From Actinomycetota bacterium (GTDB lineage: Bacteria; Actinomycetota; CADDZG01; WHSQ01), in the NCBI GenBank assembly GCA_009380005.1, contig WHSQ01000015.1, positions 1 through 53,078 on the forward strand: a stretch of DNA of 53,078 nucleotides. The letters run 5' to 3'. The notes beneath the pieces were generated by a model. That model ran no database searches, was not told where the DNA came from, and saw only the letters and a program-made list of their open reading frames with translations. Of the stretch, positions 43,084-46,405 are shown piece after piece; the first letter of the stretch is position 1; every line of letters starts with the position of its first letter. The translations under genes and the position numbers were made by a program.

Positions 43084-44259
43084 ATGGTGGTCTTGGGCGA
43101 GCCTGGAGCGAAGAGGGTATTGCTGGTCGACGATCACGTCGTCCTGAGGCGCGCCGTCCGAGACCTGATCGACCTGTCCGATCGATTCACGGTCGTCGAC
43201 GAGGCCTCCAACGGCGACGATGCCCTTCGCATCATGGGCGACGGGCGGGTCGACATCGTCCTGATGGACGTCAACATGCCGGGACTCGGCGGGATCGAGG
43301 CAACGCGCCGCATCAAGCGGTGGCACCCAGACGTCGAGGTCGTCGCGCTGTCTGCGACCGGCGACGTCGACCTCGTTCAAGGGATGATCGACGCCGGCGC
43401 AGCGGGATACGTGCTCAAGGGCGGGTCCCCCGAGGAGCTCCTGCAATCGCTCCAGGCTGTCGCCGAGGGCAAGGGCGTTCTCGATGACACGGTAGCGCGC
43501 GACGTCTTCAACCAGATGTCCCAGATGTACCGGGAGCAGCAGGCACGCGCCGACGAGCTCGACGAGGTGAACAGGATGAAGACCGAGTTCATCTCGGTCA
43601 TCTCCCACGAGCTTCAGACCCCTCTCTCGATCATGAAGGCCGGCCTCCACCTCCTCCACCACCGCGAAGACACGGTCGACGACGAGACCAAGGACGTCTT
43701 CTTCACATCGCTCGCCGCGGAGACCGACAAGCTCATCCACGTGGTCGATCAGATGCTCACCGTGGCTGCGATCCAGAAGGGGGACGTGTTCGCCGTTCCC
43801 GAAGAGATGGTGATGAGCGATATCGCTCTCGGCGCGATCACCAGCATGAAGGACCATCCCGGCACGGAACGGATGACGCTCGACATCAGGGACGACGCCG
43901 TCCTCGTCACCGGCGACAGAGGACGTCTCGTGAAGGTGGTGCGTTCGCTCATCGATAACGCGCTGCGTTTCAGCTCCGAAGAGGTCTCGGTGGTCGTCGA
44001 CAGGAACCACCAGTGGGGGCAACTGACGGTGACCGATCGGGGGCCGGGCTTGGAGGCATCCCTGCGCGAGCGCGTCCTGCGGGAGCCGTTCGTGCAGGGC
44101 GACTCTTCGAACACGCGTGAGCACGGGGGACTGGGGCTCTCGCTGTACATCGCGAACGGCGTGCTGGAGGCTTGCGGTGGCCAACTCAGGATCGGGGAGG
44201 GTCCGGGCGGGAGCTTCCGGATGATGCTCCCGCTGCTCAAGCGCCAGTCCAGCGCCTGA
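43084..44259 (+). CDS. response-regulator/histidine-kinase fusion (REC-HisKA-HATPase), no membrane domain
   Basis: A 391-residue soluble protein. An N-terminal receiver (about 10-130) has the acidic pair (LLVDDHVVLRRA) and phosphoryl Asp (VLMDVNMPG); its sequence is closest to NarL-type receivers. A short linker then leads to the HisKA dimerisation motif FISVISHELQTPLSIMK (phosphoryl His) and a HATPase domain (VVRSLIDNALRFSSEE, VTDRGPGLEAS, GGLGLSLYIANGVLEA). It is a kinase whose activity is presumably set by phosphotransfer to its own receiver from another kinase. No dedicated output gene is adjacent. Confidence 0.9.
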   Translation: MVVLGEPGAKRVLLVDDHVVLRRAVRDLIDLSDRFTVVDEASNGDDALRIMGDGRVDIVLMDVNMPGLGGIEATRRIKRWHPDVEVVALSATGDVDLVQGMIDAGAAGYVLKGGSPEELLQSLQAVAEGKGVLDDTVARDVFNQMSQMYREQQARADELDEVNRMKTEFISVISHELQTPLSIMKAGLHLLHHREDTVDDETKDVFFTSLAAETDKLIHVVDQMLTVAAIQKGDVFAVPEEMVMSDIALGAITSMKDHPGTERMTLDIRDDAVLVTGDRGRLVKVVRSLIDNALRFSSEEVSVVVDRNHQWGQLTVTDRGPGLEASLRERVLREPFVQGDSSNTREHGGLGLSLYIANGVLEACGGQLRIGEGPGGSFRMMLPLLKRQSSA

Positions 44260-44391: not shown

Positions 44392-44580
44392 ATGGATTCC
44401 GTTCAGACGATGGAACCGGCCGCGTCTGGAACCAGGATCACGCACACGGCCGAAGGCGATCCGCGCGGCTTCTTCAAGGTCGCGGAGGGCGCCCTGGAGA
44501 AGATCGTCCGCCGCCAGCTGACGGCGTCGCTCGGGAACCTGAAGGACCTGCTAGAAGGAGCTGGGGAACCCGCATCCTGA
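44392..44580 (+). pseudogene. C-terminal remnant of an SRPBCC/polyketide-cyclase-like protein
   Basis: A 62-codon open frame whose end ([35 protein letters not shown]) matches the usual C-terminal helix of SRPBCC/polyketide-cyclase family proteins, normally about 145 residues. The preceding bases do not encode the missing N-terminal strands in any frame I examined, so the gene appears truncated. A short functional protein is possible, but the ribosome binding site (GAGACG) is weak. Confidence 0.55.
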
Positions 44581-44627
44581 GCCCGACCGCGGACCGCATG
44601 TACACTTATCCGCAGTTAGTCATTTGA

Positions 44628-44644
44628 GGGCGCATACGGCGCCC
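44628..44644 (+). other. small hairpin in the leader of the DEAD-box gene
   Basis: GGGCGC and GCGCCC form a 6-bp stem around a 5-base loop, about 100 bp before the helicase start and after a TACACT-like -10 box near 44600. It may be part of a structured cold-regulated leader. Confidence 0.3.
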
Positions 44645-44743
44645 TGGGATTCAGTTCTCCGGTTCCTCCTCTCGGCGGTGCGGGTGTTTCGAATCTCCCG
44701 TACAGCGGCCGTTCCAAGGCCGCAGAAGAAGGAGTTGAACCAA

Positions 44744-46222
44744 GTGTCATCTTTCGCCCAGCTAGGCGTGTCCGCGCCCGTCTGCCGGGCGCTCGCCTCT
44801 AAGGGCATAACCGAGCCCTTCCCGATCCAACGGCTAGTGATGCGAGACGCCCTGTCGGGCCGCGACGTCCTGGCCAGGTCCCGGACCGGGTCCGGCAAGA
44901 CCCTGGCGTTCGGCATTCCCATGATCGAGCGACTCGAGGCGGCCGCGCGCAGGCCGATCGGTCTCGTCCTCGTGCCTACTCGTGAGCTTGCGGTCCAGGT
45001 GACCGACGAGCTGAAGGGCATTGCTCGCAAGAGCCGGCTCAGGATCGCGCCCGTCTACGGCGGCGTATCCCTGCAGAAGCAGGCTTCGTACGCGTCGACC
45101 TCTCAGTTGATCGTGGCGACGCCCGGGCGACTGCAGGACCTGATCGATCGCCGCATGATCTCGATCGCAGGGATCCGGATCCTGGTGCTCGACGAGGCGG
45201 ACCGGATGCTGGACATGGGCTTCCAGCCCCAGGTCGACCGGATCGTCGCGGGCATCACCGGTGAGCATCAGACGATGTTCTTCTCGGCGACGCTTGACGG
45301 CAGCGTGGGCAAGCTGGCCCGCTCGTACACGACCGGCCCGGTGCGTCACGAGATCGAGGACAAGAGCCGCGTCATCGAGACGGCCGACCATCGCTTCGTC
45401 CCCGTACGCCATGAGACGAAGATCGAGACGCTCGTCGACGAGCTCCGTCGCGACCGAGATCTTGCACTCGTGTTCGTTCGCACCAAGCGGGGGGCCGACA
45501 AGCTCTGCAAGAGGCTGCGCTCGGAAGGTATCCCCGCGGTGGCGATGCACGGGAACCTGAGCCAATCGCAACGTCAGCGAGCGCTTGCGCAGTTCGACTC
45601 GGGGCGCGTCGACGTCCTGATAGCGACCGACGTCGCCGCGCGAGGGTTGGATCTCGATGGGATCACCCACGTCTTCAACTACGACCCGCCCGGCGATCAC
45701 AAGGACTACGTGCACCGCGTCGGACGTACGGCACGCGCGGGCCGCTCCGGAACGGGCATCACGTTCGTCGCAGACGACCAGATCTACGATCTGAGCGTCA
45801 TAGCCAGGGCATTGAGGCTCGATGCGCAGTTCGAAGCCGAGGGCCTGGCGCTCACGCGGCCGGGCCACAGGTTCAAGCCGGCGAGCGCCTCGGTTGGCCG
45901 CAGCCGCCGGCCGCCGGCCACCAGCAGGCATACAAGGTTCAAGGAAACCAAGAGCGACTCCGGACGTAGCCGCAAGGCAGCTCCGCGCCGTTCGTCACGC
46001 GCGGGGGGAGGTGTTCACATGGCAACCGGAACCGTCAAGTGGTTCAACGACGAGAAGGGCTTCGGCTTCATCGAGCCCGAAGATGGCTCGAAGGATCTGT
46101 TCGTCCATCACACGAGTATCGTCGCCGAGGGCTTCAAGAGCCTCGCCGAGGGTGCGAAGGTCGAGTTCGACGCTCAGCAGGGTCAGAAAGGCCCCGAGGC
46201 GAAGAACGTCACGGCGATCTAG
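44744..46222 (+). CDS. DEAD-box RNA helicase in frame with a C-terminal cold-shock domain
   Basis: A 492-residue reading frame with no stop between two proteins. Residues 1-370 are a DEAD-box helicase: Q motif (FAQLG and FPIQ), Walker [28 protein letters not shown] box [12 protein letters not shown] in FFSATLD, and the helicase C motifs [10 protein letters not shown] and [11 protein letters not shown] basic linker (about 375-425) precedes a complete cold-shock domain ([21 protein letters not shown]). GTG 44744 is chosen, with AAGAAGGAG upstream; 5' extension to 44624 is unlikely. It unwinds RNA, probably during cold adaptation. Confidence 0.85.
46007..46013 (+). promoter_or_regulatory. internal ribosome binding site for the cold-shock protein
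   Basis: GGAGGTG lies six bases before the ATG at 46019, inside the helicase reading frame. It is among the strongest Shine-Dalgarno sites in the window and implies independent translation of the cold-shock domain. Confidence 0.7.
46019..46222 (+). CDS. cold-shock protein (CspA family), internal start
   Basis: A 67-residue complete cold-shock protein with RNP1 (KGFGFIEP) and RNP2 (LFVHH) and the start [14 protein letters not shown]. The length is exactly that of stand-alone Csp proteins. It begins at ATG 46019 after a strong ribosome binding site, but its frame is open to the upstream helicase. Csp proteins bind single-stranded RNA and act as RNA chaperones in cold or stationary phase. Both separate translation and a helicase-Csp fusion are possible; a terminator follows 24 bp after the stop. 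Confidence 0.88.
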
Positions 46223-46245
46223 ATACCAGAACCAAGACGAGGGGA

Positions 46246-46276
46246 GGGCCGCCATCCGTACGGGTGGCGGCCCTTT
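46246..46276 (+). terminator. intrinsic terminator after the cold-shock gene
   Basis: GGGCCGCCATCCG and CGGGTGGCGGCCC form a 13-bp stem with one G-U pair around TA, followed by TTT. It lies 24 bp after the cold-shock stop. Confidence 0.75.
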
Positions 46277-46300
46277 GCCACGCCACGCCACGCCACGCCA
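46277..46300 (+). repeat. short GCCAC tandem repeat
   Basis: Almost five head-to-tail copies of the 5-base unit GCCAC directly follow the terminator. A slippage-prone repeat; no function is evident. Confidence 0.7.
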
Positions 46301-46405
46301 TACCTGCTCCGCTCGGGGGACGGAACCGGACTAAACGGACGCGGATATCTTGTGGTCCGAGGGGGAGTCCGGGGCCGCATCCCATCCGTCCAGGGGGTTC
46401 GTTCG

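Follow-up and report, generated by a model that had tools for sequence, protein, structure and literature searches.

A DEAD-box RNA helicase gene in the stretch of actinobacterial DNA analysed here (contig WHSQ01000015.1, 53,078 nucleotides; the window) runs without a stop codon into a complete cold-shock protein (Csp) that has an SD and an ATG of its own. We consider it probable that this one gene yields two products, a helicase-Csp fusion and a free Csp made by internal initiation, following capture of a csp gene behind the helicase. The uninterrupted fusion is present in three genomes from two genera, the last 36 nt of the linker between the two parts derive from a csp leader, and the SD and ATG have been retained in all three. 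The downstream gene thus kept its own translation start through the fusion, its untranslated leader becoming a coding linker in which SD and start codon survived. Coordinates are collected in Table 1.

Table 1. Features of the helicase-csp locus, in window coordinates
Feature	Position	Strand	Basis
Conserved structured 5' leader of helicase mRNA	44618..44741	+	covariance model R1, E 1.9e-14
Hairpin P0	44628-44633 with 44639-44644	+	leader model
Helix P1 (GAGAUUC with GAAUCUC)	44646-44652 with 44691-44697	+	leader model
Anti-SD GUUC-CUCCU, inside P1	44662-44670	+	able to pair with helicase SD
Helicase SD AAGGAG	44729..44734	+	sequence; AGGAG invariant in 21 aligned leaders
Fused ORF, 492 aa: DEAD-box helicase, basic linker, cold-shock domain	44744..46222	+	translation, stop-free; L008/L009 open over same span
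DEAD domain, aa 27-186	44822..45301	+	Pfam PF00270, E 2.5e-44
Helicase_C domain, aa 226-333	45419..45742	+	Pfam PF00271, E 2.4e-31
Basic linker, aa 374-425	45863..46018	+	tail comparison, composition
Linker stretch attributed to csp 5' leader: loop motif CGTTCGT (45989-45995), then GGAGGTGTT	45983..46018	+	leader scores, pattern
Internal SD GGAGGTG	46007..46013	+	identical in L008, L009; codons GGA GGT GTT same in all three
Complete Csp frame, 67 aa, from internal ATG through own stop	46019..46222	+	Pfam PF00313
GC-rich hairpin then TTT, possible transcription end 3' of Csp	46246..46273	+	RNA fold, z -2.6

The fused reading frame and its relatives

Translation from the GTG at 44744 to the TAG ending at 46222 is free of stops and gives a single protein of 492 residues in which all three Pfam domains, DEAD, Helicase_C and CSD, are found. 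This agrees with the first-pass annotation, which had noticed that no stop separates helicase and Csp domain, that the linker is basic and that GGAGGTG and the ATG at 46019 precede a full-length, 67-residue Csp. Among the 52 linker residues there are 15 K/R against 2 D/E. By its domains and motif the protein is a DEAD-box RNA helicase, with PF00270 and PF00271 far over cut-off and VLDEAD present, and ATP-dependent RNA unwinding is predicted for it. The cold-shock domain (aa 428-491, PF00313, E 7.9e-29) is of the CspA type, being about 67 residues long and carrying the RNP motifs KGFGFI and DLFVHH. An AlphaFold2 model of the fusion, with three sequences as input, reached a mean pLDDT of 48.7, too low for use. 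Hairpins similar to the one 3' of the window gene were seen by eye 3' of the fused genes at L008 and L009; a strict terminator scan did not pick up the window hairpin. A short tandem CGCCA run of about four copies lies just 3' of it (46279-46302).

The class was sampled with 24 genomes, 16 from the same family, and the fusion was found in three: that of the window (G000) and two from another genus of the family (G014 and G007), in which the gene is 76-77% identical to that of the window over 490 aa and has the same internal SD and ATG. The helicase start codon is GTG in the window and TTG in both relatives. No stop interrupts the linker frame in any of the three; the linker region differs slightly in length at two places, both times by whole codons. 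In the helicase tree the fused sequences group as a single clade (100/99), with the unfused helicase G002a as sister, and each fusion genome additionally encodes a separate unfused helicase; the clade sample consists of three genomes, all draft assemblies. A stop upstream of the Csp, which the first-pass annotation had proposed looking for in relatives, is absent from the clade and was met only in the distant genomes G111 and G364, where helicase and csp are adjacent but separate. At the G364 locus (L169) only one TAG separates the helicase from a csp that continues its frame, possibly a pre-fusion state. In Streptomyces (L074-L078) the two are separate neighbouring genes with csp upstream of the helicase.

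DEAD-CSD fusions also occur elsewhere in the phylum (G127, G166, G243, G293, L066 and L068), with the same domain order in one frame, but none of these six has an SD and ATG before the cold-shock domain. Their helicases fall mostly in a separate clade (L066 stands apart and is poorly placed), and their cold-shock domains are divergent, whereas the window gene has a full-length Csp that closely resembles free Csps. DEAD-box helicases whose C-terminal cold-shock domain is divergent and lacks an internal start were observed at L066 (Thermoleophilia), L068 (Acidimicrobiaceae), L037, L170, L171 and L172, pointing to at least one further fusion origin. Fusion of helicase and cold-shock domain is, as such, recurrent, and what distinguishes the window clade is the predicted embedded start.

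Descent of the linker end and constraint on the internal SD and ATG

Free csp genes of this class were found in six other genomes of the family (G005, G008, G010, G013, G009 and G001). Their leader, about 75 nt long, begins with AGAACGTGAG, continues with the CTCGTTCGTGA motif and GGGGAGGTGTT, and is followed by the ATG. The fused linker retains CGTTCGT, its spacing to the SD, GGAGGTGTT and ATGGCAACCGGAAC, and its proximal 36 nt match the free csp leaders with z 5.6-7.4 over in-frame segments of the same helicase genes, and also over the best such segment. A pattern for the leader-derived stretch occurred once per genome in 7 of the 24 class genomes (three fused, four free) and had 0 matches in a reversed control. 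Most unfused helicases of the family stop after a basic tail of about 25-30 aa, counted from the corresponding point, at a place where the fused ones carry on with their longer linker. These comparisons indicate that the helicase frame was joined to a csp gene plus part of the csp leader, which turned into linker; we infer a deletion or rearrangement as the joining event. Retention of the whole 72-nt leader was considered and rejected, since only the proximal 36 nt are supported and the distal half did no better than chance. A covariance model of the free csp leaders matches the fused linkers only weakly (E 0.2-5). In the SD-pairing and leader-score analyses the window row lay one base too far 3', which slightly lowered its score and left the result unchanged.

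The Csp of the fused gene is 73-81% identical to the free csp genes of G013, G005, G009 and G010, and it shares Csp class, proximal leader, SD and start region with all six free genes of the family. The free genes differ in being unfused, in having the full leader with a predicted SD-hiding hairpin and, usually, a -10-like box. Predicted folds of the free leaders pair the SD to a CCUUCC-type stretch, leaving an unpaired SD fraction of 0-0.17 in 7 of 7; this arm is absent from the fused genes, whose internal SD is predicted to be mostly paired, with an unpaired fraction of 0.20-0.33. Of five free csp genes, four have a TANNNT box between -82 and -96, while the 260 nt upstream of the ATG contain none in G014 or G007 and, in the window, a single one at -234. 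An internal promoter was rejected as a candidate, as there is no conserved -10-like box and a scan of the region gave no promoter-like site. A class search with the covariance model of the six free leaders plus that of a free csp in G000 gave one match per genome, in those seven and, weakly, in G004. Invariant GAACGT and CTCGTTC and a predicted SD-hiding hairpin characterize the free csp leader loci (L126-L128, L136-L140, L142), which are not in Rfam. The cspA thermoregulator (RF01766) is likewise an RNA spanning csp leader and gene, but at 28.3 bits against a gathering cut-off of 78 the present RNA is not a member.

GGAGG is separated from the ATG at 46019 by 7 nt. In 128 helicase ORFs, GGAGG lies 4-10 nt upstream of 15 of 2663 internal ATG/GTG codons, so a chance internal SD is expected in about one in ten such ORFs; taken singly, the internal SD is weak evidence. 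Three findings exceed what chance would give: frame, SD and ATG are kept in two genomes of another genus, the last 36 nt of the linker descend from a csp leader, and third-position divergence is low in this part of the gene. The gene has, in three genomes of two genera, an SD and start codon at the border of its C-terminal domain, as expected of a gene with an internal in-frame start.

Third positions differ at 10 of 93 codons in linker and csp between G014 and G007, as opposed to 129 of 371 in the helicase core (p 2e-6), and between the window and G014 the corresponding figures are 22/93 and 170/371 (p 9e-5), third positions of the helicase core differing by about 46% between genera. Where the linker amino acid is the same in the window and G014, 14 of 15 codons are also the same, compared with around half in the helicase; for codons -22 to +5 in all three genomes the contrast is 15/19 versus 153/339 (Fisher p 0.004). 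The seven codons from the ATG at 46019 have zero first- or second-position changes. Between-genus changes in the linker are at least as frequent at codon positions 1 and 2 as at position 3, and since its amino acids vary so freely the constraint acts on nucleotides more than on protein. Codon bias alone could be the cause of the low third-position divergence in csp.

In neither G007 nor G014 was another csp above 54% identity found (best others 51-54%) or, by the covariance model of the free leader, a full csp leader. Any free Csp of that class that these two genomes may need must therefore be supplied by the fusion gene. The window genome also has a free csp (C555, 69% identical), so there the fusion is not required as a source of free Csp.

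Two probable products and the alternatives

In the scenario that we favour, the clade's ancestor would have captured a free csp downstream of a DEAD-box helicase gene, the csp leader becoming coding linker as the frames were joined. Ribosomes starting at GTG 44744 would read through to produce a helicase to which a cold-shock domain is tethered; others would load on the same mRNA at the internal SD and ATG to produce free Csp, probably in excess. With the csp promoter and the SD-hiding leader arm gone, the helicase transcript would now be the source on which free Csp from this gene relies. That Csp is made in excess is suggested by three features: helicase start codons that are weak, a Csp start that combines ATG with a strong SD, and third positions that diverge less in csp. 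The Csps of B. subtilis are among its most abundant proteins (PMC8307031), which makes a one-to-one supply of Csp and helicase unlikely. The first-pass annotation had raised the possibility that one gene gives both a fusion and a free Csp; that proposal fits all of the comparative evidence, its two products being predicted from sequence. It did not include the capture of a csp gene whose leader became linker, nor the structured leader in front of the helicase start.

Internal in-frame starts that yield a C-terminal domain have been proven experimentally for Cas11b, made from cas8b in Haloferax (PMC11899642), and for the CTP1L endolysin (PMC4777826), and these precedents establish that such a start is able to give a second product. 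As in Cas11b, for which excess production of the small product was inferred in the same paper, a single ORF here is predicted to have its C-terminal domain also made singly from an internal ATG. The small Cas subunit, however, becomes part of the large subunit's complex, whereas the window gene ends in a general RNA chaperone that has free relatives, and the linker in front of it descends from the leader of the free gene. CTP1L resembles the window gene in that an internal ribosome-binding site and start in a bacterial-type gene provide a C-terminal nucleic-acid- or ligand-binding module alone, but it is a phage cell-wall enzyme whose short form binds the long one. The literature searched, which lay mostly outside subscription journals, contained no description of bacterial helicase-CSD fusions or of helicase leaders.

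It is conceivable, though in our view unlikely, that the fusion protein alone is made, the internal SD and ATG being unused relics of the captured csp and the cold-shock domain serving as an RNA-binding tail of the helicase. The other actinobacterial fusions, which work without an internal start, and the free paralogous csp in the window genome would both accommodate this. Against it, SD, ATG and start-proximal codons are the same between genera despite the divergence at third positions of the helicase core, and the Csp part has stayed undiverged, unlike the cold-shock domains of those other fusions. Free Csp could instead be the important product but come from a separate short transcript, through an internal promoter or RNA processing, with loss of the stop nearly neutral and the fusion devoid of a role. 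The slight constraint on linker amino acids agrees with this, yet the TANNNT boxes of the free csp genes have no counterpart near the ATG of the fused ones, both length differences in the linker region are whole codons, and the frame is free of stops in all three genomes; we judge this version highly improbable.

The window genome is a draft metagenome assembly (3.8 Mb in 639 contigs) of an uncultured actinobacterium, and the named relatives of its helicase likewise come from actinobacterial metagenomes; in such a draft a sequencing or assembly error might have deleted a stop codon or merged two genes. This explanation, of which the first-pass annotation had named the loss of a stop by sequencing error as what would undo its reading, is refuted by the same open frame in two independent assemblies of the other genus (L008, L009), and we give it next to no credence. 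A fusion of this kind, in which the downstream gene keeps its translation start, is a plausible route to "two proteins from one gene" arrangements, and here unfused relatives let the steps be read. It would also tie helicase and Csp, two parts of the cold response, together both physically and in expression.

A structured leader upstream of the helicase

The 124 nt upstream of the helicase start are conserved among fused and unfused helicases, in the family and beyond. Helix P1 has standard pairs in 93.8% of cells and both-side changes at three pairs, and the anti-SD, GUUC-CUCCUU, has a predicted partner in AAGGAG-NN-GAAC at the helicase SD; in the positions beside the SD several types of pair occur. 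Swapping partners between leaders weakens the pairing, none of 5000 permutations being as good for P1 and 3 of 5000 for anti-SD:SD, in a test that relatedness inflates. In the window the anti-SD pairing is of average strength (-10.2 kcal/mol, rank 21 of 25). Formed jointly, P1 and the anti-SD:SD pairing would make a pseudoknot; alternatively, the two might alternate.

Run against 296 actinobacterial genomes, a covariance model of this leader matched at 39 sites in 35 of them, from ten numbered families, with E-values that are rough; the sites compared by coordinates lie directly upstream of DEAD-box helicase matches. A comparison with Rfam yielded nothing at gathering level for the window or for seven loci that have csp or helicase leaders, and relaxing E to 5 over 44400-46400 brought up no plausible match. 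The helicase leader loci (L174-L203), spread over at least ten actinobacterial families and without an Rfam match, are possibly the most novel element at the locus. Preceding DEAD-box helicases in at least ten sampled families and absent from Rfam, the leader is testable in its own right.

The helicase start is probably controlled separately from that of the Csp, by its structured leader, where an anti-SD can mask the SD. We tentatively suggest, as a serious possibility that falls short of being probable, that one mRNA carries two controls: a pseudoknot-like leader, of a previously undescribed class of actinobacterial DEAD-box helicase leaders, that covers the helicase SD and sets the level of the fusion, perhaps in response to cold or to helicase activity, and an embedded start that supplies free Csp in excess. 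As triggers of the leader, cold and the activity of the helicase itself come to mind first.

DEAD-box helicase genes from acidobacterial and verrucomicrobial genomes (L082, L084, L093, L100 and L105) have recurrent upstream motifs of their own (GGTTCTCnCTTACGCAT; TTTCGTTTCCTTCTTGC), which may represent analogous or related leaders. Upstream of the helicase, window positions 43084-44259 encode one protein that begins with a response regulator receiver domain, followed by HisKA and HATPase domains.
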